This document shows positions 19,505 to 39,625 of a stretch of 64,000 bases of DNA, one piece after another (the first letter of the stretch is position 1; every line of letters starts with the position of its first letter). This DNA is from an uncultured Woeseiaceae bacterium (lineage in GTDB: Bacteria > Pseudomonadota > Gammaproteobacteria > Steroidobacterales > Woeseiaceae). Made by a program: the position numbers and the translations under genes. The notes under the pieces are model-generated. The model was not told the origin of the DNA. It did not search any database and was given only the letters and a program-made list of their open reading frames with translations. Location of the stretch: NCBI GenBank assembly GCA_905182415.1, contig CAJJBK010000005.1:1-64000 (forward strand), in the 5' to 3' direction.

Positions 19505-20254
19505 ATTATTTCACTGATATTCGCATTTTTTGCTACGGCGTTAGTCTATGCTTCTGTCGGTTTTGGGGGCGGCTCGACCTATAACGCATTATTGATTTTA
19601 AGTCAGGTCGATTACAATTTGGTGCCAATTATCGCCTTAATATGTAATGTGATCGTCGTGAGTGGTAATTGCTTGAGATACCATAAAAATGATTTGATAC
19701 CTTGGTCATTTACTTTGCCGGTTATTTTGGTATCTATTCCATTTGCTCTTATAGGCGGTAATACCCTTATTGATGAAGCTCTCTTTATCAAAATATTGGG
19801 TTGGACATTGTTGTTTTCTGGATTGATGATGTTTTATAGACATCAAGAGATTACTTCGATATCGCCAAAACTAAATAGCTCCATAGGTAAATTTATCAGT
19901 ATTATCGTAGCAGCTATCTTAGGTTTTCTTGCTGGTTTAGTGGGCATTGGTGGAGGTATTTTCTTCGCTCCCATATTGCATATAACCCAAGTCCTCCCAA
20001 CGAGAAAGATCGCTGCTTTTGCCAGTATTTTTATTCTGGTTAATTCTATAGCTGGTCTTATTGGGCAATATAATAAATACGATAATCTCGATATATTGTG
20101 GCTTGATAATCAATATATTTGGCTCTTATTGGTAGTATTTATCGGAGGGCAATTGGGTTCATATATAAGCATCAAAACAATTAAACCAATTATTTTACGT
20201 AGACTAACCGCGGGACTGGTGATTTATGTAGGATGTAGATTATTATTGATATAA
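19505..20254 (+). CDS. TSUP-family membrane permease with apparent ATT start
   Basis: About 249 aa when started at ATT 19505, the usual TSUP length. The first helix and signature ATALVYASVGFGGGS are encoded well upstream of the first canonical codon in frame (TTG 19592), which would delete them. Between the in-frame TAA at 19472 and 19592 there is no ATG, GTG or TTG. AAGGA at 19495-19499 is well placed for ATT at 19505 or 19508. The second repeat carries GFLAGLVGIGGGIFFAPIL. TSUP (TauE/SafE) proteins move sulfite, sulfoacetate, other organic sulfur or carboxylate anions. It is the first gene of the plus-strand set up to 24245, although co-transcription is not certain. Confidence 0.8.
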   Translation: MISLIFAFFATALVYASVGFGGGSTYNALLILSQVDYNLVPIIALICNVIVVSGNCLRYHKNDLIPWSFTLPVILVSIPFALIGGNTLIDEALFIKILGWTLLFSGLMMFYRHQEITSISPKLNSSIGKFISIIVAAILGFLAGLVGIGGGIFFAPILHITQVLPTRKIAAFASIFILVNSIAGLIGQYNKYDNLDILWLDNQYIWLLLVVFIGGQLGSYISIKTIKPIILRRLTAGLVIYVGCRLLLI

Positions 20255-20301
20255 GATTAAATGAACGAAGATAATTATAAGAACAGTGCTTGAGGTATTC
20301 A

Positions 20302-20901
20302 GTGTCGTTAGAAATAAGAAAAATCGTGATACATGATGAAGAAACTCTAATTGAAGGATTTTGTGAAGCACAAAATCCCCTCAGAATGTTCGCAGTGGCA
20401 GCGGTCATAAGAAATCCATGGTCTGGTAGATACGTGGATGATTTAAAGCCAGACATTTTGTCTATCGCTCCTCCTTTGGGTGAGGAATTAACTCAAAGAA
20501 TTATAGAGTTAGCAGGCGGTGGAGAAAAAATAGAGGCCTATGGTAAAGCTGCTGTCGTGGGGCTTGACGGAGAAATAGAACACGCCTCTGCCTTGATACA
20601 TACTTTGCGATTCGGGAATTTTTACAGAGAGGCTGTAGGAGCAAAAAGTTATTTATCCTTCACGAATACTCGTGGCCCTGCCAATGCCCCAATTATGGTT
20701 CCGTTGATGGATAAAAATGATGCCGGTCGTCGTTCTCACTACTTAACCATTCAGTTTTCTATTGCAGATGCTCCAAGGGCGGATGAGATTGTAGTTGTTC
20801 TAGGGGGCTCAATTGGCGGTCGTCCTCATCATCGTATTGGTGATCGCTATCAAGACTTAAAAGATCTCGGTCATGATGTGGAAAACCCTGCCTCGGTATA
20901 G
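20302..20901 (+). CDS. AA_synth (PF06684, DUF1185) family protein
   Basis: A 199-aa protein. GTG 20302 is preferred because GAGGT lies 5-9 bases upstream. Characteristic stretches are FAVAAVIRNPWSGRYVDDLKP, GEKIEAYGKAAVVGLDGEIEHASALIH, TRGPANAPIMVPLMDKNDAGRRSHYLT, and DEIVVVLGGSIGGRPHHRIGDRYQDL, which are typical of the family annotated as amino-acid synthesis. The biochemical role is not established. It lies directly before a hydrolase and luciferase-like monooxygenase and overlaps the former by 29 bases. This combination recalls trigonelline degradation clusters. Confidence 0.85.
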   Translation: MSLEIRKIVIHDEETLIEGFCEAQNPLRMFAVAAVIRNPWSGRYVDDLKPDILSIAPPLGEELTQRIIELAGGGEKIEAYGKAAVVGLDGEIEHASALIHTLRFGNFYREAVGAKSYLSFTNTRGPANAPIMVPLMDKNDAGRRSHYLTIQFSIADAPRADEIVVVLGGSIGGRPHHRIGDRYQDLKDLGHDVENPASV

Positions 20902-21685
20902 AACTACTAATAATATTGCCTATTACAAGACTGGTAATGGTCCGGCTATTCTTCTGATTCACGGCGTGGGTTTGAGACTAGAAAGTTGGAATGCCCAAAT
21001 AAATATTCTCAGTCAAGAGCACACCGTGTATGCCATCGACTTGCCGGGCCATGGAGAAAGTGATCAGTTAATACTAGAATCACCCAATATAGATCTTTAT
21101 ACACAACAAATAAAATTATTTGCAGACGAAATGATCACTGGTGCTTTTATAGTGATGGGGCATTCTCTGGGTGCTCTGATCGCGATTCGTTTTGCCCATT
21201 TGCATAAAAAATATTGTCTTGGTGTTGTGGCATTAAATTGTGTTTATCAACGCTCCAAAAAAGCAATGAGTTTTGTCAAGTCGCGTGCAACAAAACTTGC
21301 TCTAGAGGGGCCCAAAAATATTATTCCTCAAACAATTGATCGATGGTTTGGAGAAAATCCAACGGGTTCTAATATAGAAATAGCTAGTACTTGTAAGCAA
21401 TGGTTAGAAGCAACAAATATAGAAGGTTATAGCCATGCTTATAACACTTTCGCTCATGAAGATGGGGTCGCAGAAAAGTTATTGATAATGAATAATTTGC
21501 CCATCGCATTTATAACAGGTACGTTAGACTCAAATTCAACGCCATTAATGAGTCAGGATATGGCGACGACCTCTCCTTTTGGAATGGTGGAATTAATCCC
21601 AGAAGCGGGTCATATGGCACAAATGACTCACTCAAAAGAGGTTGGTGAAGTACTGCGATTATTTGCACTGGGCATTAGAAATTAA
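20873..21685 (+). CDS. Alpha/beta hydrolase (TgnD-like candidate)
   Basis: A 270-aa alpha/beta hydrolase: oxyanion motif LIHGVGLRLESW, AIDLPGHGESD, nucleophile S98 in the elbow VMGHSLGAL, acid Asp in ITGTLDSNS, and catalytic His in PEAGHMAQMTH. It overlaps the AA_synth gene by 29 bases and precedes the LLM monooxygenase by 14. In the characterised trigonelline pathway a hydrolase of this fold (TgnD) deformylates and breaks down the ring-opened product. Context supports that role here but sequence alone cannot prove it. The enzyme is cytoplasmic, with no signal peptide. Confidence 0.85.
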   Translation: MMWKTLPRYRTTNNIAYYKTGNGPAILLIHGVGLRLESWNAQINILSQEHTVYAIDLPGHGESDQLILESPNIDLYTQQIKLFADEMITGAFIVMGHSLGALIAIRFAHLHKKYCLGVVALNCVYQRSKKAMSFVKSRATKLALEGPKNIIPQTIDRWFGENPTGSNIEIASTCKQWLEATNIEGYSHAYNTFAHEDGVAEKLLIMNNLPIAFITGTLDSNSTPLMSQDMATTSPFGMVELIPEAGHMAQMTHSKEVGEVLRLFALGIRN

Positions 21686-21699
21686 TATAACGAGATAGT

Positions 21700-22740
21700 T
21701 TGATGAAATTTTCACTTTTTGCGCATATGGAACGCACAAGTCAACAGCAATCATATGTTGATTCATACGATGAGTTCTTGCGGTTGTGTCAGCTGGCAGA
21801 TCAAGGTGGAATGCATGCAATATGGACGGGCGAACATCATTGTATGGATTTTACTATTGCCCCTAATCCATTTATTAATATCGCTGACTTAGCCAGTAAA
21901 TTGGATAATGTACGCTTAGGGACTGGCACTATCATCGCGCCATTTTGGCATCCAATCAAGTTGGCTGGTGAATCGGCTATGACGGATATAATTACATCGG
22001 GAAGACTAGAACTGGGTATTGCAAGAGGGGCTTATAGCTATGAATATGAACGTTTAATGCCAAGCATGAACGCTTGGGAGGCTGGCGCTCGTATGCGAGA
22101 AATGATACCGGCGATTCAAGGACTGTGGAGCGGTAATTATAAGCACGATGGAGAGTACTATAAATTTCCAGAATCAACGTCAACTCCAAAACCAATGCAA
22201 TCATCAGGCCCACCTATTTGGATCGCTGCAAGAGATCCAAATAGTCATGAATTTGCTATAAAAAATAATTGTAATGTTCAGGTTACTCCTCTCTGGCAAG
22301 GCTATAAAGAAGTAAGAGATTTGATAGCTCGCTTTAAAGATGCTCAGATTAAATGTCAAAATAAAGCCCAATCAAAAATAATGTTGTTGCAGCATACATT
22401 TGTAGCAGGTTCCGATGATGAGATAGATTATGCGGCCAAAAAATTCAGTGAGTTTTATGGCCACTTTGGTGCGTGGTTTAAAAATGAAAGACCAGTAGAT
22501 CAAGCCTTAATGAAAAAATTATCTGTTTCAGAATTAGAAGCGCTTGATATGTATTCTCCTTCCGTTATGAAAGATAATTTAGCCATTGGTAATTCAACGG
22601 ATGTGATAAATCTGCTAAAAAAATATGAGGAGCTTGGCTATGATGAATTTGCTTATTGGATTGATTCAGGAATGAGTTTCGAGCTTAAAAAAGCATCTTT
22701 AGATAGGTTTATTAACGAAGTTATGCCGGCTTTTCAGTAA
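21700..22740 (+). CDS. Luciferase-like flavin monooxygenase (TgnA-like candidate)
   Basis: A 346-aa bacterial-luciferase-fold protein. It opens MMKFSLFAHMERTSQQQS, then IWTGEHHCMDFTIAPNPF, VRLGTGTIIAPFWHPIKLAGE, SGRLELGIARGAY, and PPIWIAARDPNSHEFAIKN. This run of motifs is the one I associate with the oxygenase part of the pyridine-ring-cleaving trigonelline system (TgnA), which uses reduced flavin from a partner reductase. No flavin reductase gene is in the window. It sits between the hydrolase and an aldehyde dehydrogenase, as in that pathway. Assignment as TgnA is inference; the LLM family assignment is firm. Confidence 0.9.
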   Translation: MMKFSLFAHMERTSQQQSYVDSYDEFLRLCQLADQGGMHAIWTGEHHCMDFTIAPNPFINIADLASKLDNVRLGTGTIIAPFWHPIKLAGESAMTDIITSGRLELGIARGAYSYEYERLMPSMNAWEAGARMREMIPAIQGLWSGNYKHDGEYYKFPESTSTPKPMQSSGPPIWIAARDPNSHEFAIKNNCNVQVTPLWQGYKEVRDLIARFKDAQIKCQNKAQSKIMLLQHTFVAGSDDEIDYAAKKFSEFYGHFGAWFKNERPVDQALMKKLSVSELEALDMYSPSVMKDNLAIGNSTDVINLLKKYEELGYDEFAYWIDSGMSFELKKASLDRFINEVMPAFQ

Positions 22741-22757
22741 TCAATGGGTTATTAAAT

Positions 22758-24245
22758 ATGACTATTAAGGAAAAAATACCTCATTATTCACTTTTTATAA
22801 ACGGCGAATTTATTGAGGGAGAAAAAAAAGAAAGTATAGAGAGTATCAACCCTCATACTGGAAAGGTATGGGCAACGTTTTCTGCCGCTAACGATGTTGA
22901 TGTAAACCGTGCAATATCGATAGCAAAACGATCAATGGAAAAAGGCAAGTGGGCAGATATGCTGCCCTCAATGCGAGGTAAATTATTGTTTACTCTGGCT
23001 GATTTAATCGAAAAGCACGCTTCTTTTCTGGGCGAAATAGAAACCAAGGATAGTGGTAAATTACTTGTCGAGACAGCCACTCAAACAAAATATGTTGCTG
23101 ATTATTACCGTTATTATGCTGGCTTGGCAGACAAAATAGAGGGCGCAACTTTACCGATTGATAAACCGGATATGCATGTCTTCACTACCTGTGAACCGAT
23201 TGGCGTGGTCGCAGCGATAGTTCCTTGGAATGCACAAATGTTCCTTACTGCAACAAAACTAGCTCCGGCACTGGCAGCTGGTTGCGCTACTATTATCAAA
23301 GCATCTGAAATTGCCCCATGTGCATTATTGTATTTTGGGAGGCTAATTAAAGAGGCAGGATTTCCAGATGGTGTCGTCTCAATTATTACTGGAGATGCAA
23401 AAAATTGTGCCGTTCCATTAACGACACATCCCGATATTGATCGAATTGCATTTACTGGAGGACCGGAAACAGCTAAACAAATTATTATTAATTCAGCGGA
23501 AAATTTTGCTGTTACCACGCTTGAATTGGGCGGTAAATCTCCAATAATAATTTTTGAAGATGCAGATATTGACAGTGCAGTTAATGGAATTATTGCTGGA
23601 AATTTTGGCGCATCAGGGCAATCTTGTGTAGCTGGATCAAGAGTGATTGTGCATGAATCAATAAAAAATGACGTGATAGCTAGGCTCATAAAAAAAGTCA
23701 ACCACATCAGAGTTGGCAGCCCAACAGACCCAGAGACTCATGTGGGTCCGCTATGTACCGAAAAGCAAATTATATTAATTGAAAACACATTAAAGAAAGC
23801 CACTTCACAGGGAGCTAAAATACAATTTGGCGGGAAGCGAAAACAAAGTGAAGGATATTATTTTGAACCCACATTGGTGGATTGCCCTAATGAATCGATT
23901 GCCACACTTGAGGTTGAAATGTTTGGTCCAGTAATGTCAATGCTGTCTTTCGAGAGTGAAGAAGAGGCGATTGATTTAGCTAATAATAGTTCATACGGGC
24001 TTGGCTCAGGTGTATTTACAACTAATTTGGCTCGCGCACACCGTGTTTCAAAAAAGATTAAGGCAGGTATTTGTTGGATTAATAGCTATCGAGCAATTTC
24101 TCCTATTGCTCCGTTTGGTGGTTATAATCGATCGGGTTATGCCAGAGAAGCAGGTATTCAGGCAATAAATGATTACGTGAGGACAAAAACTACTTGGATT
24201 AATATATCTGATGAGCCTATGGCTAATCCATTTGTCATGCGCTAA
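22758..24245 (+). CDS. NAD(P)-dependent aldehyde dehydrogenase (TgnC-like candidate)
   Basis: A 495-aa ALDH with catalytic C290 in FGASGQSCVAGSR, general base E256 in TTLELGGKSP, the NAD pocket VAAIVPWNAQ and AFTGGPETAK, and the C-terminal APFGGYNRSGYAREAG. It ends the plus-strand set (AA_synth, hydrolase, LLM, ALDH), 17 bases after the monooxygenase. In trigonelline breakdown an ALDH (TgnC) oxidises the hydroxybutyrolactone intermediate; this gene fits that place. It converges with the BCCT gene 25 bases later, with no clear terminator between them. Confidence 0.9.
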   Translation: MTIKEKIPHYSLFINGEFIEGEKKESIESINPHTGKVWATFSAANDVDVNRAISIAKRSMEKGKWADMLPSMRGKLLFTLADLIEKHASFLGEIETKDSGKLLVETATQTKYVADYYRYYAGLADKIEGATLPIDKPDMHVFTTCEPIGVVAAIVPWNAQMFLTATKLAPALAAGCATIIKASEIAPCALLYFGRLIKEAGFPDGVVSIITGDAKNCAVPLTTHPDIDRIAFTGGPETAKQIIINSAENFAVTTLELGGKSPIIIFEDADIDSAVNGIIAGNFGASGQSCVAGSRVIVHESIKNDVIARLIKKVNHIRVGSPTDPETHVGPLCTEKQIILIENTLKKATSQGAKIQFGGKRKQSEGYYFEPTLVDCPNESIATLEVEMFGPVMSMLSFESEEEAIDLANNSSYGLGSGVFTTNLARAHRVSKKIKAGICWINSYRAISPIAPFGGYNRSGYAREAGIQAINDYVRTKTTWINISDEPMANPFVMR

Positions 24246-24270: not shown

Positions 24271-25905
24271 TTATTGAGTTGAGTTAGAGTCATCATTTAA
24301 TAACGACTTAATCAGTGAAATAACCATAAGTGCCATGACGACTGAAAACGGCAGAGCACCTATAATCATTATTGATCGCAATGCTTCCATTCCTCCAGCT
24401 GCTAACAATACGCCGATAAGTACCGAGAATAGGACCCCCCAAATCACTATATGCTTAGCTTGTTTTTGACTTTGACTGCCACCTGATGCCAGCGTAGTGA
24501 TGATCAAAATACCTGAATCTGCTGAAGTGACTAAAAAGGTTAATAGTAATGTCACAATGACTAAGGAGAGCGCGATGGATAAACCCGGTGAAAGTATTAA
24601 ATTAATTGTTTCGAATAATTGCGCTGAAATATCTGCATTAACGATGGCACCCTGAGCGATACCGTCCAGTTCAAGGTCAATTGCTGTAGCACCGATGAAG
24701 GTGATCCATACCAAGCAGATTAAAGAAGGAATAATCATTGCGCCGATGACATACTCGCGAATGGTTCTGCCCCGAGAGACGCGAGCTAAAAATAAACCGA
24801 CAAAAGGAGCGAAAGCGATCCACCAGGCCCAATAAAAGATAGTCCAAGTACTTTGCCATCCTTGTAATGCAGCAGAGGGTTCAACGCCGTTATCTTTCCA
24901 AACCGTGGTAGACATCGCTGGAAGGGCGATTAGGTAATCCCATATTGTGTAAAAAAAGGTTTCTAAGGCAAAAAAGGTAGCGCCAAATAAAATGAAAAAG
25001 GCAATTAAGAAAACCGATAAACTCATATTAATATTTGACAACCACTTGATGCCTTTTTTCAAACCCGACATAGCAGAAACACAAGAAGCACTAACGATTA
25101 GAGTTAATCCGAATAACTGAGCTAGAAGAGTTGGCTTCCCGCTGCCATCTATCAACCACGTTGCACCACTTATATTGAAAAGGCCAGAGGCAAATTGTGA
25201 TACACCATAACCAATCGTCACACTTAGACCAACGATAGTGGCTAAGATAGCAACGATATCAACAACGTGTCCCGCACCGCCCGACATAGCTCGGCCAAAA
25301 AGAGGTTGTAAGGCACTTCGAATTGTTAGAGGCAAGTTACGATTATAGGCTAAATATCCCAGTGAAATACCAATCACACCATAACAAGCCCAGGGCGTGA
25401 GGCCATAATGCAACATAGCCCATTTATAGGCATTACGAACATTATTTTCATCCAGTCCAGTGGTTAATCCCCTGATCGTGTCTGGGTTAGTGGCGAAGTG
25501 AGAAAGAGGTTCGGCAGTAGAATAAGTGAGCATCCCTATACCTATACCAGCACCAAACATCATTGAGATCCATGAGAAGGTACTAAATTCTGGCTTTTCA
25601 TTAGGTTTACCCAGTTTTATATGAGCCGTGCGAGGCCAAAATCCAAGGCATAAACAAGCAATGGTATAAAATGCAGTGACATAGACATACCAGGTTCCAA
25701 AGGTCTCAGTCGACCAATTTTGTGCTTCCAATAATATTTGGCCGGTAGTGGAAGGCGAGATACCCACCCACATAATTAGCCCACCAATTAATAATTTTGG
25801 TATCACAGCAACAACACGATTAAAGCCTTTATAGAATCCAGACTGATCTGTATTTATGAATACGGCTGGTTGCTGCTGACTTGAGGGTGAATTATCCAAA
25901 ATCAT
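24271..25905 (-). CDS. BCCT-family betaine/quaternary amine transporter 1
   Basis: A 544-aa secondary carrier with 12 predicted helices. Family landmarks are FSWISMMFGAGIGIGMLTYSTAEP (the Gly-rich helix 3 of BetP) and FYWAWWIAFAPFVGLFLARV in helix 8. Compared with the usual WWxSWxP, the last Trp is Phe here, and the segment is AFAP, which alters the aromatic box for trimethylammonium groups. The ending is RSIMIIGALPFSVVMALMVI. It is the last gene after the DUF3726-like gene (33 bases) and probably imports the substrate of that operon or of the adjacent LLM set. Confidence 0.9.
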   Translation of the reverse strand: MILDNSPSSQQQPAVFINTDQSGFYKGFNRVVAVIPKLLIGGLIMWVGISPSTTGQILLEAQNWSTETFGTWYVYVTAFYTIACLCLGFWPRTAHIKLGKPNEKPEFSTFSWISMMFGAGIGIGMLTYSTAEPLSHFATNPDTIRGLTTGLDENNVRNAYKWAMLHYGLTPWACYGVIGISLGYLAYNRNLPLTIRSALQPLFGRAMSGGAGHVVDIVAILATIVGLSVTIGYGVSQFASGLFNISGATWLIDGSGKPTLLAQLFGLTLIVSASCVSAMSGLKKGIKWLSNINMSLSVFLIAFFILFGATFFALETFFYTIWDYLIALPAMSTTVWKDNGVEPSAALQGWQSTWTIFYWAWWIAFAPFVGLFLARVSRGRTIREYVIGAMIIPSLICLVWITFIGATAIDLELDGIAQGAIVNADISAQLFETINLILSPGLSIALSLVIVTLLLTFLVTSADSGILIITTLASGGSQSQKQAKHIVIWGVLFSVLIGVLLAAGGMEALRSIMIIGALPFSVVMALMVISLIKSLLNDDSNSTQ

Positions 25906-25938: not shown

Positions 25939-26700
25939 TTATTCACCCGCACCAAGTCGGGACTGTTCACTTGCTTCGACCAATATCTGATCAGCTATAT
26001 ACAAGAGTCTTGTATATTGAGCAGTCTCAATATAAAGACCGCTTGTTATTTTCTCATTAAAACGTTGTTTAAATTCACATGCTAGAATTTCTCGAGTCAC
26101 TTTTCCTTTTTGTGAAAGAGGTGGAATCTTTAAATAAGACTCAATGGAATTAATACTATCTTTAGAGCATATCAAATCTAATTCAGACTTGTTATTGAGT
26201 ATTGAATTATTTATTTTTATTGTTGAATAATTTGGATACATTTCATTGGGATTGATACTCGCTAAATACAGTAAATTTTTTTCTGGTTCTGCCCACCATG
26301 CTTTCGCGTAATAACCATATTGACTGCATTTAATGAGGCTAGGGAGAATAACAATAGGTTGAAGTGTATTGTTGATATTAGAATGACAGATATTATCTTG
26401 ATGGCATTTTGCCAATGTCATATCAGTAATAATACTGCCTGTATGCATGAGGCTATGCTTCTGATTATCAAAGACAAAACGTTTTTTATTATCTTTTAAA
26501 AGGACAGGTGTGAGATTTAGTTTTTTAGGGTTCACGTCAGTTATCCCTAGAAAATTAATAATTCCCATAAGATCGTGAATTTCAAGCCATTGAATGATTG
26601 CTGCTGTATCTTCGAAATCATATTTATGACCATAATATGACTCACAGGCACGATTTAGCAGAGCTTTGAATTCATTGATTGAAATTCTAATGAATTTCAT
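25939..26700 (-). CDS. DUF3726-like protein
   Basis: A 253-aa protein with probable similarity to DUF3726: a helical start ISINEFKALLNRACESYYG, then AAIIQWLEIHDLMGI, a long middle region, and a C-terminal YIETAQYTRLLYIADQILVEASEQSRL. No transmembrane or signal segment and no recognisable catalytic motif is present. Three cysteines and several histidines cluster at KCHQDNICHSN, which could bind metal, but this is weak. Its ATG overlaps the end of the 575-aa gene by 14 bases. Function unknown; the coupling points to a shared complex or pathway. Confidence 0.6.
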   Translation of the reverse strand: MKFIRISINEFKALLNRACESYYGHKYDFEDTAAIIQWLEIHDLMGIINFLGITDVNPKKLNLTPVLLKDNKKRFVFDNQKHSLMHTGSIITDMTLAKCHQDNICHSNINNTLQPIVILPSLIKCSQYGYYAKAWWAEPEKNLLYLASINPNEMYPNYSTIKINNSILNNKSELDLICSKDSINSIESYLKIPPLSQKGKVTREILACEFKQRFNEKITSGLYIETAQYTRLLYIADQILVEASEQSRLGAGE

Positions 26701-28414
26701 TTCCTTTGCTCATTTGATTATTTGGCATGATGGGGAAGATCCAATCATCTTTATATTTAGAGCCAATATCAGAGGTAATTGGCGCTCCTTGGAACATCGT
26801 ATTACGAACCCATAGTCGAGACTTAGGGTCAAATTTTCCAACGCCAAAAAACGATAACTTACAGCGCAATAAATGTATTGGCAGCACATCTTTATCAAGT
26901 AAATTTGCTTGTATTTCACCGTATTTTGTTTTTGCCATTGTTTGTATACGCCGAATAATTTGACGATGCTCGGGGTAGGCGAATACGAATTCAGCAACAT
27001 TATTAATATTTATTTCTGGAGGTAATTTATTAAGAGTTGAATGACATTGTTCAACAGCGCGAGCAATACCGATCAGTATTTCTTTTTCAGCACCCTGATC
27101 AATGTCTCTATCACCAAGTCTTGGCTCCATTTTTTCTTCAGATCGATACCAGAAAACTGCGTTTGCATTTTTGGAATTGAAATCGTATTGCAACGCCCAT
27201 TGATATTGCTTTTCTATAATTTGTCTGAGATCCAATAATTTCATTTCTGGGGACAATTCATATCTTTCCTCAATGTCATGGTTTTCTTCTAGAGACAATA
27301 CTTCTTCAGGATGGATTTCGATTAAGATGGTATTAATGAGTTCTTGCGCTTCAACATTATAGTGGTTGGTTACATAGTCTATAAATTGATCCCACTCTTG
27401 AAGAGTTTCTTTGCTCAGCCACTTTATGATCGAGCCTAGCGATTGACTAGCCTCTAGATTAATTTTATTTTGTGACTCATTATTGGTCGTTATTTCATTT
27501 AAATGAATGATGGCACGTTGTATCAATAAATTAAGAGCTTGCAGGGTATTTTTATTCGGTAGTGTATTGCTTATAACTTGTGCTAATGCAAATTCTCTCG
27601 TTTCGATCCAGCTATTGATTAATAAAGGATGCTTGATTAAAAAAGGCGCCATCCCAAGACCAGTAGCATTACCAATCCCAAAATACCTTTTTATGTCATC
27701 ATCGAGACGAACTGCTAACTCAGGTGCACGCTTGAATGCAATATGATCGGCTTGATCTAGGCTGAACTGTCTGATCATAAAACAAGCAAACATTTCAGCT
27801 GAAAATGGCTCTTTGAAGTCTTGATAAGCTAATTTTATTTTGCCCCAATCAGCCATTCCGAATTTACCGCTTCCATAAACAGCCGTTGTTCGATACAAAT
27901 ATCCAACCTCATTAATTTTTTTGATACAAGGCTGCATACCAGAACTGAGTTGATTGACCACATATTCAAAGTTACGGCTGCTTTTATTGGCTCTTGATAA
28001 CACTAAGCTTTCTGCTGACATTCTACCTTTTTCTTGGCGTGGCACATTTTCTTTCAGCGTCTCTAATTCATCTGGTTTAAAGGGTCCATGCCGAAGCGTA
28101 ACTGTCATGTCCCACGCCTCTGCAATCACTCTATCTGTTCGAAGAGTGCTATCTAGAAAATTGGCAAATACGACAAAATGATAACAATTGCTTGGAGTGG
28201 TTATCTCATAAACAGCTTCACCATAACCTTCTTTATCTAAATTAAACAAGACGCGATTAATGTTCCACTGCTCTTGCATAACTTTTCTCATTAACTTTCG
28301 CATAAAACTGAGTTTATAAGGGTAAAAGCTTCCTAGTCGATTGAGATCCATGACTTTTGCTGGGCTTCTTAAGCTCGTTTTTGCTTGCTTAAGGCTGTGA
28401 CTATGATTATTCAT
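26687..28414 (-). CDS. 575-aa conserved hypothetical protein
   Basis: I do not recognise a named family. Notable segments are LNRLGSFYPYKLSFMRKLMRKV, EAVYEITTPSNCYHFVVFANFL, TVTLRHGPFKPDELETL, TTAVYGSGKFGMADWGKI, and ERLDDD-like acidic runs around residue 235 (VRLDDDIKRYFGIGNATGLGMAPFL). The C-terminal third holds FWYRSEEKMEPRLGDRDIDQG and LRCKLSFFGVGKFDPKSRLW. It is soluble, with no signal. Two Gly-rich stretches could bind a cofactor or nucleotide but match no standard motif. Its start overlaps the upstream dipeptidase-like gene as ATGA and its end overlaps the DUF3726-like gene by 14 bases, showing strong co-translation. Confidence 0.8.
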   Translation of the reverse strand: MNNHSHSLKQAKTSLRSPAKVMDLNRLGSFYPYKLSFMRKLMRKVMQEQWNINRVLFNLDKEGYGEAVYEITTPSNCYHFVVFANFLDSTLRTDRVIAEAWDMTVTLRHGPFKPDELETLKENVPRQEKGRMSAESLVLSRANKSSRNFEYVVNQLSSGMQPCIKKINEVGYLYRTTAVYGSGKFGMADWGKIKLAYQDFKEPFSAEMFACFMIRQFSLDQADHIAFKRAPELAVRLDDDIKRYFGIGNATGLGMAPFLIKHPLLINSWIETREFALAQVISNTLPNKNTLQALNLLIQRAIIHLNEITTNNESQNKINLEASQSLGSIIKWLSKETLQEWDQFIDYVTNHYNVEAQELINTILIEIHPEEVLSLEENHDIEERYELSPEMKLLDLRQIIEKQYQWALQYDFNSKNANAVFWYRSEEKMEPRLGDRDIDQGAEKEILIGIARAVEQCHSTLNKLPPEININNVAEFVFAYPEHRQIIRRIQTMAKTKYGEIQANLLDKDVLPIHLLRCKLSFFGVGKFDPKSRLWVRNTMFQGAPITSDIGSKYKDDWIFPIMPNNQMSKGNEIH

Positions 28415-29415
28415 GAGTCTTTATTAGGCATGGGTGGAAAGGACGACAAGAAGAAATTTAACCAATTTTTACCCATGATTTTTTCTATGTCTTGATCACT
28501 GAAACTTACTGCTTGTAGGCCATCAATTAAGTTTTGAAATCCCAAATTATTTTTAAACCAGTCTGGTTGTTTGGGCCATGTAGGTTGTTCAGCATTACCT
28601 TCACCAAAGTCAGGTGTGAGCGCCCATCTACCACTGCGCATCCACTCTAAGACGGTATAGTCCCAGTTAAGGCATAAATCTGAGCCAATACCAATGCGAT
28701 CTATACCCATAAATTCAGCTGTGTCATAGATCATATTGCAAAATTCTTCTAAGGTGCAATCAGAACCTTTAGCAAGGTGAAAAGGGTAAAGACTCACGCC
28801 TAGCATACCTTTAGATTGACTGAGATTCTTGAGAACATCATTTGATTTATTTCTTAATGCTGCGTGGAAAGTAGTTGGATTTGCATGCGTGATTGCAATT
28901 GGCCGAGTAGAAATTTCTATGGCTTGCAAGGTTGAATGCTCGGCACTGTGCGACATATCGATGATCATGCCGAGACGATTCATTTCTTTGATGGCCACTT
29001 TGCCAAACCGAGTGATGCCTGAATCTCTCTCTTCATAGCAACCAGTGGCAAGTAAGCTTTGATTGTTGTAACTGAGTTGCATTATACGTGCGCCTAGATG
29101 GTGCATTTCTTCGATAAGACGAACATCGTCTTCCACGGGAGAGCAATTTTGAAAGCCAAAGATAATACCAATTTTATTATTATCTTGAGCGACTTGAATG
29201 TCCTCAGCACTTCTGATTGGCATAATTAGATCAGCATGTTCTGTGAAATGTTTATTCCAGTTATCAATATTTTGGATGACTTCTTTTCGATTTTCCCAAT
29301 AGGCGATAGTGACATGAATCACATTAAGACCACCGCGCTTTGCTTCTTTAAAAAGCTCTCGATTCCAATTTACATATTGGAGGCAATCAATAATTAATAT
29401 GTCATTGGTATTCAT
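28411..29415 (-). CDS. M19 (membrane dipeptidase)-like protein with altered metal site
   Basis: A 334-aa TIM-barrel protein of the peptidase M19 family. Conserved parts include IMQLSYNNQSLLATGCYE, GMIIDMSHS (H156), ITHANPTTFHAALRN (H177) and MGIDRIGIGSDL. Renal-dipeptidase-type enzymes begin with HxD and have a bridging Glu. Here these positions read IDCLQYVNW and FGFQN, so two of the usual zinc ligand groups are missing. It is therefore probably not a classical dipeptidase; a mononuclear hydrolase or lyase is possible. Its start shares one base with the ALDH stop (TAATG), and its stop overlaps the next start (ATGA). Confidence 0.8.
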   Translation of the reverse strand: MNTNDILIIDCLQYVNWNRELFKEAKRGGLNVIHVTIAYWENRKEVIQNIDNWNKHFTEHADLIMPIRSAEDIQVAQDNNKIGIIFGFQNCSPVEDDVRLIEEMHHLGARIMQLSYNNQSLLATGCYEERDSGITRFGKVAIKEMNRLGMIIDMSHSAEHSTLQAIEISTRPIAITHANPTTFHAALRNKSNDVLKNLSQSKGMLGVSLYPFHLAKGSDCTLEEFCNMIYDTAEFMGIDRIGIGSDLCLNWDYTVLEWMRSGRWALTPDFGEGNAEQPTWPKQPDWFKNNLGFQNLIDGLQAVSFSDQDIEKIMGKNWLNFFLSSFPPMPNKDS

Positions 29416-30854
29416 TATGAAGAAATATAGGTAGTTTTAACGATAGTATAAAACTCTTTAGCATAGGATCCTTGTTCACGAGGTCCGTAGCTTGAGGATT
29501 TTCTGCCACCGAACGGGACATGGTAGTCGGTTCCAGCGGTTGGCAGATTAACCATTACACAGCCCGATTCAGAGTGTCGTTTAAAGTGACTGGCTTGTTT
29601 GAGTGATTGAGTAATAATCCCTGAAGTTAGGCCAAAGTCAGAGTCATTAGAGATAGCCAATGCTTCTTCATAACTATCAGCTTTTATAACACAAGCAATT
29701 GGTCCAAATACTTCCTCACGATTAATTTCCATCTGATTGTTGGTTTCTGTAAATAAGGTAGGACGCATATAAAATCCATTATGACTCACTGTAATTGACT
29801 CATCACCAGCTATCATTTTGGCGCCAGCTTTTTGAGCAGATGCTATGTATTTTTTATTTTGCTCAAATTGACGTGAATCAACCACAGGACCAATTTGTGT
29901 TGTCTTATCTAATGCATTGCCGACAATCAATGTTTGTGTTGCTGTGATCATTTTTTCAACGAACTCATCGTGAATGCCAGCTTCAACAATTAATCTAGAG
30001 GATGCAGTGCATTTTTGTCCGGTACCAAAAAATGCGCCGTTAATGGCGCATTGGACGGCAATATCAATATCAGCATCATTCAGGATGACTAGCGCATTTT
30101 TGCTGCCCATCTCTAATTGAATTCGTGTCATATTTTTAATGGCTTTTTGTGCTATCAAGTTGCCTGTTTTGACTGAGCCTGTAAATGAAATAGCATCAAT
30201 GTCTTTTGATTCTGAGAGTGTCTCACCGGCAATACTTCCTGGTCCTTGTATACAGTTAAATACACCTTTTGGTAAACCACTTCGATGCAATATATCAGCA
30301 AATGCAATTGCACTGGCTGGCACAATTTCAGAAGGTTTGAGGACAACACAATTACCAAAAGCAAGGGCAGGTGCTATTTTCCAGGCAGCGACTGCTATGG
30401 GGAAGTTCCAAGGCGTAATGACGCCAATTACGCCCAATGGTTCTCTAGTGACTTCAACATTGATATTGGGTCGAGTGGAAGTGGCCAGTTCACCCATCTG
30501 CCTGAGAACTTCTGCGCCGAAGTATTGAAAGAATTGTCCCGATCGATATACTTCACCAATGCCTTCGGCCAGGGGTTTACCTTCTTCTCGCGCAATTAAT
30601 TCACCAATTTCGGTACTGCAATTAATGAGCTCATCACCAATATAATCGAGTATTTTTTTTCTCTCTTCCAGTGAACTAGCTGACCATTCATTAAAAGCAT
30701 CTCTAGCACTTTTGATGGCCAATAAACTGTCTTCTTTAGAGGCTGCATGAAAAGTACCAATACAATCCGTTGTATCAGAAGGATTGATGCTGGTGAATGA
30801 TTGCCCATTATTAAGCCATTGACCATTAATTAAGTTACTTCCTAAATTTGACAT
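29415..30854 (-). CDS. Aldehyde dehydrogenase (ketoglutarate-semialdehyde type)
   Basis: A 479-aa ALDH from ATG 30854, preferred because GAGGA is close upstream and the longer frame (30884) adds no conserved sequence. Catalytic Cys is in FGTGQKCTASSRL, the base Glu in RIQLEMGSKNA, and the NAD site in GVITPWNFPIAV and SFTGSVKTG. The C-terminal AGTDYHVPFGGRKSSSYGPREQG resembles alpha-ketoglutarate-semialdehyde and related semialdehyde dehydrogenases. It is the first gene of the coupled set ALDH, M19-like, 575-aa, DUF3726-like, BCCT. A semialdehyde from betaine or amino-acid breakdown is a reasonable substrate; this is inference. Confidence 0.9.
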   Translation of the reverse strand: MSNLGSNLINGQWLNNGQSFTSINPSDTTDCIGTFHAASKEDSLLAIKSARDAFNEWSASSLEERKKILDYIGDELINCSTEIGELIAREEGKPLAEGIGEVYRSGQFFQYFGAEVLRQMGELATSTRPNINVEVTREPLGVIGVITPWNFPIAVAAWKIAPALAFGNCVVLKPSEIVPASAIAFADILHRSGLPKGVFNCIQGPGSIAGETLSESKDIDAISFTGSVKTGNLIAQKAIKNMTRIQLEMGSKNALVILNDADIDIAVQCAINGAFFGTGQKCTASSRLIVEAGIHDEFVEKMITATQTLIVGNALDKTTQIGPVVDSRQFEQNKKYIASAQKAGAKMIAGDESITVSHNGFYMRPTLFTETNNQMEINREEVFGPIACVIKADSYEEALAISNDSDFGLTSGIITQSLKQASHFKRHSESGCVMVNLPTAGTDYHVPFGGRKSSSYGPREQGSYAKEFYTIVKTTYISS

Positions 30855-30923
30855 TTCTTCCTCAGATAAAGAATGTTTGCACATAAACTATACGTGAATC
30901 GATTACTAGTTATTGTAACTAAC

Positions 30924-36045: not shown

Positions 36046-37725
36046 CTAAAATAAACCCGTAATACTTTTTGAATCATCTACACCAATATTATCAGAAGCC
36101 GGTTTCCTGGGCAGTCCTGGCATGGTCATAACATCGCCGCATACTACGACAATAAATTCGGCACCCGCAGCAAGTCGGATTTCACGGATAGGAACATCAT
36201 GACCACTGGGAGCTCCAGTGAGTTGCGGGTCAGTAGAAAAACTATACTGGGTTTTTGCCATACAAACCGGGTAATGACCGTAACCTGCTGCTTCAAATTG
36301 CTCGAATTGTGCTCGTACTTTTTTGTCTGCAATAATATCTTGGGCACCATAAATGGTTCTGGCAATATGCTGAGCTTTATCCCAGAGTTTCATGTCATCG
36401 GCATACAGTGTTTTAAATTTAGATGGCTGATTGTCAATGATGTCGATTACATGAGAGGCTAATGCTTCTGCCCCTTTTCCGCCATCAGACCAGTGTGAAG
36501 AAATTTTACAAGCAACGCCAAATTTTTGGCAGTAATCTATAATTGCTTGATGCTCATTTTCTGTATCAGTTACGTAATCATTTATAGCGACGACTACTGG
36601 CACTCCAAATTCACCAATATTTCGAATGTGACGACCTAGGTTCTCACATCCAGCTATTACAGCATCGACATTCTCTTTTTGTAAGTTTGATTTTTCAACT
36701 CCACCGTGCATTTTTAATGCTTTGGTGGTTGCAACTAGAACTACAGCACCTGGGTGAAGTCCTGCTTTGCGACATTTTATATCAAAAAATTTCTCTGCCC
36801 CTAAGTCAGCGCCAAAGCCTGCTTCAGTTACCACATAATCAGCCAGTTTGAGTGCTGTTTTAGTTGCCACAACAGAGTTACAACCGTGAGCAATATTGGC
36901 AAATGGACCGCCATGCATTAAGGCGGGATTATTCTCTAGTGTCTGAACTAAATTAGGCTGGAAGGCATCTTTTAATAGGGCTGTCATCGCGCCTTGTGCA
37001 TTTAACTGGCTAACTTTAACTGGTTCACGTTTTCTTGTGTAACCAATAACCATATTACCAAGACGATTTTGCAGGTCTTTAAGATCTGTCGCTAAGCAGA
37101 ATACTGCCATAACCTCAGAGGCAACTGTGATATCAAAACCACCTTGTCTTGGAATACCATTCCCAGGACCACCAAGGCCAGTAGTGATATCTCTTAAGGC
37201 GCGATCATTCATATCCACAACTCGTTTCCACGTAATTCTTCTTGGGTCAATATCTAGCTGATTTTCCCAGTGGATGTGATTATCTATTAAGGCTGATAAA
37301 AGATTATGCGCAGCACCAATGGCATGAAAATCACCAGTAAAGTGTAAGTTGATGTCTGTCATTGGAATTACTTGTGCATAACCACCACCTGCAGCACCAC
37401 CCTTCATACCAAAACATGGACCTAGGCTTGGTTCTCGCAAACAAATCATGGCGCGTTTACCGATATGACATAAGCCATCCACTAAGCCGACACTCGTTGT
37501 TGTTTTACCTTCACCAGCTGGCGTAGGCGAGATTGCGGTGACTAAAATAAGATGACCATCTTTTTTATCTTTGATTTGATCGATGTATTCGTAAGTCAAT
37601 TTTGCCTTATCATTACCATAAGGAATTAAACTCGATTCCTTTATATCTAATTTCTTTGCAATATCTGCAATAGGCTCTTTATTTGCTGCTTGCGCGATTT
37701 CTAAATCTGAAAGATAGTCTGTCAT
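36046..37725 (-). CDS. fhs: Formate-tetrahydrofolate ligase
   Basis: A 559-aa enzyme (EC 6.3.4.3) that joins formate to tetrahydrofolate with ATP to give 10-formyl-THF, the usual family length. The P-loop is in [19 protein letters not shown] (residues ~62-80). [45 protein letters not shown], the [20 protein letters not shown] segment, and [15 protein letters not shown] at the C-terminus are diagnostic. It is transcribed singly, divergent from the mttB gene 358 bases away. In this setting it can interconvert C1 units released from methyl groups with formate. Confidence 0.97.
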
Positions 37726-38083: not shown

Positions 38084-39625
38084 ATGGTAGAACGAAAACG
38101 CCGAAGAAAAAGTGGCGGCAGAAGCTCAAAAGTAGCTGCGCGTCAAAGTAAAACTACCGAATATTCAGCTTTTATCGAACGCAAAGTTCCTTATTTTGAG
38201 ATATTGAGCGAAGAAGGTTTATCGCTGATTGAAAATAATGCTGATATTTTACTAGAAGAAATTGGTGTCGAATTTCATGACTTCCCAGAAGCGTTAAAAT
38301 TATTCAAGGATGCGGGTGCCGATGTTGATGGTGTACGAGTCCGTTTTCCACGTGGTCTTTGCCGGAGCATCGTTCAATCAAATGCTCCATCAGAATTCAC
38401 GCAACATGCAAGAAATCCCAAGCGCAATGTTATTATAGGTGGACCACGAACAGTTATGGTGCCCGCCTATGGCTCGCCCTTTATTCGAAATATAGATGAG
38501 GGTCGACGTTATGCGACTATCGAGGATTTTCGAAATTTTGTGAAATTAGCTTATCTAAGCCCTCATCTTCATCACTCGGGGGGGACTGTTTGTGAGCCTA
38601 TGGATGTCCCTGTGAATAAACGTCATTTCGATATGATATACAGCCATATCAAATACAGTGACAAACCATTTATGGGTTCGGTGACGCATCGAGAAAGGGC
38701 CGAAGACACTGTGGCAATGGCTAAAATTGTTTTCGGCGAGGATTTTCTAAAAGAAAACACCGTATTGACCAGTTTGATCAATGCAAATTCACCGTTGACC
38801 TTCGATGCTACGATGTTGGGTGCGGCTACGGTTTATGCTAAGAATAATCAAGCCACGATAATTTCACCGTTTATCTTGGCGGGAGCAATGTCGCCGGTTA
38901 CAGTCACAGGCACAGTGACTCAAATTTTAGCCGAAGCTTTGGCAGGTATGGCTTATATTCAACTTGTTAAACCTGGTGCACCGGTAATTTTTGGAACTTT
39001 TGCGAGCGTGGTATCTATGCAATCTGGTGCCCCTACATTCGGTACCCCTGAACCTAGTCAAGTGATGACGATTGCGGGCGCTTTGGCAAGACGTTTAGGT
39101 GTCCCGTTTCGAAGTGGAGGTGGACTCTGTGCCTCAAAAATTCCAGATGCACAAGCAGCTTACGAGTCGGCAAATACATTACAAGCATCGGCACTGGCCG
39201 GAGTTAACTTCATGCTTCATACAGCCGGTTGGCTGGAAAGTGGTCTTGCCATGTGTTACGAAAAGTTCATAATGGATGCAGATCAAGCAGGGATGTTAGC
39301 GATAACGCTTAAAGGGGTAGATTTGTCAGAAAATGCTCAAGCATTAGATGCATTCAGAGAAGTCGGTCCTGGAGCTCATTTTCTCGGAGCGAAACATACC
39401 CAAGCTAATTTCGAAACTGCGTTTTATCGTTCCGAGATTGCCGATAACAACAGTTTCGAGCAATGGGAAGAAGAAGGTAGTTTAGATTGCGCGATGCGGG
39501 CAAATAAACAATGGAAACAGATGTTGAATGATTATGAAGCGCCAGAGTTAGATCAAGGAATCGATGAAGCATTGTTGGAATTCATTGCAAAAAGGAAAAC
39601 TGAATTTGAAGATAGGGATTACTGA
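38084..39625 (+). CDS. MttB-family trimethylamine/betaine:corrinoid methyltransferase 1 (non-pyrrolysine)
   Basis: A 513-aa TIM-barrel methyltransferase that moves a methyl group from a quaternary or tertiary amine to a corrinoid protein. There is no in-frame TAG, so it belongs to the non-pyrrolysine branch that includes MtgB, which acts on glycine betaine. Features are the basic head MVERKRRRKSGGRSSKVAAR common in proteobacterial members, GADVDGVRVRFPRG, MVPAYGSPFIRNIDEGRRYAT, LHHSGGTVCEPMDV, and QSGAPTFGTPEPSQ. It leads an operon with the corrinoid protein 56 bases later. Glycine betaine is the best guess of substrate; others (proline betaine, carnitine) are possible. Confidence 0.9.
   Translation: MVERKRRRKSGGRSSKVAARQSKTTEYSAFIERKVPYFEILSEEGLSLIENNADILLEEIGVEFHDFPEALKLFKDAGADVDGVRVRFPRGLCRSIVQSNAPSEFTQHARNPKRNVIIGGPRTVMVPAYGSPFIRNIDEGRRYATIEDFRNFVKLAYLSPHLHHSGGTVCEPMDVPVNKRHFDMIYSHIKYSDKPFMGSVTHRERAEDTVAMAKIVFGEDFLKENTVLTSLINANSPLTFDATMLGAATVYAKNNQATIISPFILAGAMSPVTVTGTVTQILAEALAGMAYIQLVKPGAPVIFGTFASVVSMQSGAPTFGTPEPSQVMTIAGALARRLGVPFRSGGGLCASKIPDAQAAYESANTLQASALAGVNFMLHTAGWLESGLAMCYEKFIMDADQAGMLAITLKGVDLSENAQALDAFREVGPGAHFLGAKHTQANFETAFYRSEIADNNSFEQWEEEGSLDCAMRANKQWKQMLNDYEAPELDQGIDEALLEFIAKRKTEFEDRDY

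Follow-up and report, generated by a model that had tools for sequence, protein, structure and literature searches.

Does a row of genes in the genome of an uncultured marine Woeseiaceae bacterium encode the catabolism of trigonelline, and which part of the known pathway does it lack? Trigonelline, or N-methylnicotinate, is a compound with which plants and plankton balance salt. Its catabolic (trc) genes were reportedly mapped on pSym near nif and nod genes by Boivin et al. in 1990, and the tgn pathway by which Acinetobacter baylyi ADP1 degrades trigonelline, including the chemistry of TgnA to TgnE, is said to have been described by Perchat et al. in 2018. Another paper states that the trigonelline ring is opened by TgnA/TgnB, and that trigonelline has been measured in the ocean and is used by a marine bacterium (PMC8269262).

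The window, that is the whole stretch of 64,000 nucleotides analysed here, belongs to contig C5 of an assembly of 1.82 Mb (99.4% complete, 73 contigs), and a sequence-only reading of it had proposed that an AA_synth protein, an alpha/beta hydrolase, a luciferase-like flavin monooxygenase (LLM) and an aldehyde dehydrogenase (ALDH) form a trigonelline degradation set. From gene content, homology, tree placement and selection, and with no reductase found, I consider it quite probable that this row is a Tgn-type trigonelline catabolic operon, which was probably acquired and would have lost its own flavin reductase. A trigonelline route that is complete but for one part would thereby be placed in a marine gammaproteobacterium with a reduced genome, and a betaine of plants and plankton would be linked to carbon and nitrogen cycling in the ocean.

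The open reading frames and Pfam families of the row are as that reading described them, and so are the TSUP permease in front and the adjoining BCCT gene (Table 1). Alignment with relatives led me to revise the starts of AA_synth (to a GTG) and of the LLM (to an ATG); the AA_synth and hydrolase genes share 29 bases, and between the hydrolase and the LLM there is a spacer of 17 bases. The start codon of the TSUP gene is uncertain. Its reading frame extends to 19505/19508, and the part from 19505 to 19592 encodes a conserved GFGGGS motif without an ATG, GTG or TTG start; as the ATT codon at 19508 is kept in all seven Woeseiaceae-type loci, window counted, a rare ATT start is possible. The permease gene adjoins AA_synth in six of these seven loci, and the contig of the seventh ends there. 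The LLM and the AA_synth protein are the sole matches of the genome to PF00296 and PF06684, respectively, and the closest named relative, Woeseiaceae isolate AM-375-N10, has an LLM that is 97% identical. Scans for promoters and terminators gave no excess over shuffled sequences (11 vs 17.2 and 4 vs 3.2).

Table 1. Features of the gene row and of its surroundings in the window.
Feature	Position	Strand	Model match
TSUP-family permease (TauE/SafE), first in row	19508..20254	+	PF01925, 102.6 bits
AA_synth / DUF1185, TgnF-like	20302..20901	+	PF06684, 243 bits
Alpha/beta hydrolase, TgnD-like	20873..21685	+	PF00561, 63 bits
17-base gap, site of the TgnB-like reductase in other operons	21686..21702	none	
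LLM, TgnA-like	21703..22740	+	PF00296, 157 bits
ALDH, TgnC-like	22758..24245	+	PF00171, 512 bits
BCCT transporter, convergent with the row, candidate trigonelline importer	24271..25905	-	PF02028, 485 bits
Formate--tetrahydrofolate ligase	36046..37725	-	NF010030, 912 bits (cut-off 652)

A scan with the LLM, in which each species was represented by a single genome, yielded 574 confirmed relatives, and I kept the best 80 of them (62-97% identical); gene counts per locus were taken from a tblastn map and are limited by contig ends. Among these best 80 of 574, 78 loci have AA_synth close to the LLM and on its strand, all 80 have the hydrolase there and 79 the ALDH, frequencies which argue that the grouping is not due to chance. 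A flavin reductase is near the LLM in 69, and a succinate-semialdehyde dehydrogenase (SSADH) occurs anywhere in the locus in 40. Twenty further loci, from 19 of the 30 Moraxellaceae-family matches and one genome of the same order, contain AA_synth in 19 cases, hydrolase, reductase and ALDH in all 20, and SSADH in 17, so that the link with SSADH draws on 40/80 and 17/20 loci. In annotated records the gene order is AA_synth, hydrolase, flavin reductase, LLM, ALDH. Such operons, often with SSADH, are found in Rhizobium, on pSymA of S. meliloti, and in Moraxellaceae, Burkholderia and Psychrobacter, and the window LLM is 60-65% identical to the operon LLMs of Moraxellaceae, rhizobia and others. In a plasmid collection 1024 records match the LLM, 245 of them at 60-80% identity. 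On Mesorhizobium plasmid pWSM1497 the hydrolase is naturally fused with the flavin reductase into a single protein of 599 aa, of the TgnD-TgnB type (L085:8205-10004).

As the genes of the homologous operons (for LLM, reductase, ALDH, hydrolase, PF06684 protein and SSADH) make up the Tgn set, trigonelline is the likely substrate, and the proposal of a trigonelline set gains support from the flavin reductase and SSADH, the remaining Tgn parts, that these operons carry. The pSymA copy of S. meliloti is located between nodL/noeA/noeB and nifT/nifB; this position counts for trigonelline, because the trc genes were reportedly mapped there.

In a tree of 44 rows, the window LLM falls among operon-linked LLMs in a clade of 34 rows including the window, with a support of 91/98 that is just below the star threshold. 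The operon-linked ALDHs form a clade (100/99) that includes the window protein and that of locus L138, apart from the E. coli ALDHs (BetB, GabD, PuuC and FeaB), which answers the earlier concern that the ALDH could group elsewhere. Judged by these placements, the LLM is probably of the TgnA type and the ALDH a fitting TgnC, while the hydrolase, present in the window and in 80/80 of the best 80 of 574 loci, would fit TgnD; orthology of the window proteins to the Tgn proteins of A. baylyi is inferred through the Moraxellaceae operons.

As in tgn of A. baylyi ADP1, a single row encodes the LLM oxygenase, the ALDH, the hydrolase and the PF06684 protein, a BCCT gene lies beside it, and the genome has an SSADH. 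Three differences count against the trigonelline reading: neither row nor genome has a TgnB-type reductase by PF01613/PF00175; no GntR-type regulator was found near the row; and the SSADH, which scores over its cut-off, is unlinked to the row (G000:C32) and in a tree closer to E. coli GabD than to the operon SSADHs. TgnE seems to be replaced by this unlinked SSADH. Another ALDH of the window (29415-30884) was considered for TgnE and rejected, its best matches being dioxovalerate and ketoglutarate-semialdehyde dehydrogenase models, below cut-off. Compared with pSymA of S. meliloti (CP140953.1), AA_synth, hydrolase, LLM (61%) and ALDH occur in identical order, but the pSymA operon additionally comprises a flavin reductase of 311 aa and an ABC transporter, and its SSADH is linked. 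The window row would be a reductase-less variant of a known pathway, distinguished by this absence. A sister operon with a 38% identical LLM exists in Ensifer canadensis (pT173c) and Agrobacterium fabrum (pAt), at L086:7463-12271 and L183:4466-10255. It likewise has LLM, ALDH, hydrolase and AA_synth close together, and a flavin reductase; unlike in the window, its LLM and ALDH lie in separate clades (100/99 for the two LLMs in the 44-row tree) and a carboxymuconolactone-decarboxylase (CMD)-like gene is present. It is a candidate pathway for another ring betaine.

From this gene set I infer the following steps. Trigonelline would be imported by the BCCT transporter, which in a tree is placed with the operon-adjoining BCCTs of Psychrobacter and Hellea (an unstarred support of 94/93) and away from both BetT and the BCCTs of Pseudovibrio. 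TgnA (the LLM) would open the ring with O2 and with FMNH2 supplied by some other reductase of the cell, TgnC (the ALDH) would oxidise the ring-opened product, and TgnD (the hydrolase) would release succinate semialdehyde, methylamine, formate and CO2. The unlinked SSADH would oxidise succinate semialdehyde, assisted by TgnF (AA_synth), and the formate-THF ligase of the window, a possible formate sink with a presumed link to the pathway, could channel formate into the folate pool. This ligase and the sarcosine oxidase alpha and beta family proteins in the window, which score over cut-off, fit both the betaine theme noted earlier for this stretch and a use of formate in one-carbon metabolism.

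AA_synth had been counted in the proposed set and left unexplained; the protein can now be read as TgnF-like by its PF06684 match (cut-off 27 bits). According to PMC7913881, TgnF of A. baylyi is homologous to a DUF1185/PF06684-family protein and stimulates the TgnE-dependent oxidation of succinic semialdehyde, so that AA_synth in the row supports the trigonelline reading. Its predicted structure (24 sequences, pLDDT 85.7) matches the DUF1185 structures 3byq (Z 23.2) and 2qtp (Z 20.9). Fold comparison lends no support to a RidA-like catalytic role, as in this model Rid and chorismate mutase matches reach Z <=5.8, which is noise level. Locus L003 was left out of the AA_synth alignment. In 27 sequences (the window and 26 chosen loci), pairwise identities have medians of 69.7% (AA_synth), 67.7% (LLM), 66.3% (ALDH) and 37.2% (hydrolase, the least conserved member of the row); the medians of the window against other taxa are 68.8, 62.6, 53.7 and 33.0%, respectively. 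By these medians the TgnF-like protein is at least as constrained as the oxygenase, which adds comparative weight to a little-understood helper. It is not indispensable, since the LLM occurs without AA_synth nearby in L009, L010 and L149 (genome G298), and genomes G298 and G312 have no PF06684 match at all.

The main rival concerns the substrate. A deep split divides the operon-linked ALDHs: on one side stand rhizobial, Acinetobacter-like, Burkholderia and roseobacter proteins (98/96), on the other a marine group (100/100) from Woeseiaceae, Psychrobacter, Hellea, Kiloniellaceae and G298. So deep a split would allow for a different substrate; the marine subclade (this genus together with Psychrobacter, Hellea and Kiloniellaceae) could act on another N-methylpyridinium betaine such as homarine. 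Cutting of the homarine ring would, by reasoning, yield 2-oxoglutarate, methylamine and formate and make SSADH unnecessary, in keeping with the row of this genus, which has none. PMC8269262 describes homarine as far commoner at sea than trigonelline, with no degradation pathway known in 2021; the authors, however, thought an action of TgnAB on it unlikely. Furthermore, the split of the marine subclade is shallow in the LLM tree, Psychrobacter operons of this subclade are adjoined by an SSADH gene that scores over cut-off, and an identity of 60-77% is maintained in the TgnF-like protein, which according to PMC7913881 serves the oxidation of succinic semialdehyde. I therefore regard homarine as an unlikely substrate, and it is more doubtful still that the Tgn enzymes of the marine subclade were re-aimed to homarine, with 2-oxoglutarate as product, together with an oxygenase that became independent of a dedicated reductase in this genus.

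Returning to trigonelline as the preferred substrate, the reductase is the missing part. As the sequence-only reading had correctly noted, the window contains no flavin reductase; the 17-base gap lies where annotated operons have the TgnB-like gene between hydrolase and LLM, and it holds no reductase remnant. Eleven of the best 80 of 574 loci have no reductase gene close to that of the LLM, namely all seven Woeseiaceae-type loci, one Rhodospirillaceae MAG whose LLM nests among the Woeseiaceae-type LLMs, two Hellea MAGs and Caballeronia arvi, with gaps of at most about 70 bases. As a reductase does accompany the Burkholderia LLMs that sit beside Caballeronia in the tree, at least two losses must have taken place. 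Three extra LLM matches at class level all have a reductase, one of them cut by a contig end. In search of a reductase elsewhere in the genome, I found no match to PF01613 or PF00175 in the 73 contigs, with control searches positive in 13/14 and 10/14 genomes, respectively. The 97% identical relative also lacks a reductase, in an assembly that is only 84% complete. Of the eight other genomes in the genus, three carry a PF01613 gene that stands alone (about 160 aa) on a different contig, and there a generic reductase may serve. The visible candidates in the own genome are two PF03358 proteins (200 and 153 aa), presumably WrbA-like, and one PF00881 nitroreductase (187 aa), none of them linked to the row. 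The row raises the question of how a two-component flavin oxygenase runs without a detectable PF01613 or Fre-type reductase in the genome.

Alternatively, the operon may be decaying, its oxygenase no longer working once the reductase gene was gone from the row, with no PF01613 or PF00175 match in the genome. I consider this very unlikely, as all genes of the row are open with dN/dS values of 0.04-0.20 (window against two close relatives), which indicates purifying selection, the row is retained in seven of the eight other genomes of the genus, and comparable reductase-less rows exist in Hellea and Caballeronia. A ring-opening or desulfonating pathway of the RutA or SsuD/SfnG kind, suggested by the breadth of the LLM superfamily and by weak matches to many LLM models, is hardly conceivable: the SsuD and SfnG models give 21.5 bits (cut-off 518) and 45 bits (cut-off 383), and in the tree RutA, SsuD and SfnG join one another at a great distance from the window LLM, on long outgroup branches that make their exact positions unsure, the tree being for RutA, without a model row, the sole evidence. 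On scores (SsuD, SfnG) and tree together I reject such a kinship; a grouping with RutA or alkanesulfonate monooxygenases had been named as what would refute the trigonelline set.

The LLM is carried by the own genome and by 7/8 other genomes of the genus, by 0/28 genomes of the other genera of the family, 2/23 from the rest of the order as sampled, 4/369 of the class (own genome counted) and 30/249 of the Moraxellaceae sample. This patchy distribution suggests transfer into the genus, and the operon was probably acquired by this marine genus. The locus of the Rhodospirillaceae MAG (L009:9177-11038), with hydrolase and LLM nested in the Woeseiaceae clade and without AA_synth, is either a recent transfer or a misbinned contig.

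Elsewhere in the window, an MttB-like methyltransferase (38084-39625) scores 271 bits, which falls short of the cut-off for trimethylamine (525), and is possibly a non-pyrrolysine betaine methyltransferase. Two open reading frames of 253 and 575 aa without Pfam match (25939-28414) have genes for an M19 dipeptidase and an ALDH as neighbours; in a same-order genome (L149), a homologue of the 575-aa frame, a dipeptidase and an ALDH also adjoin the operon.
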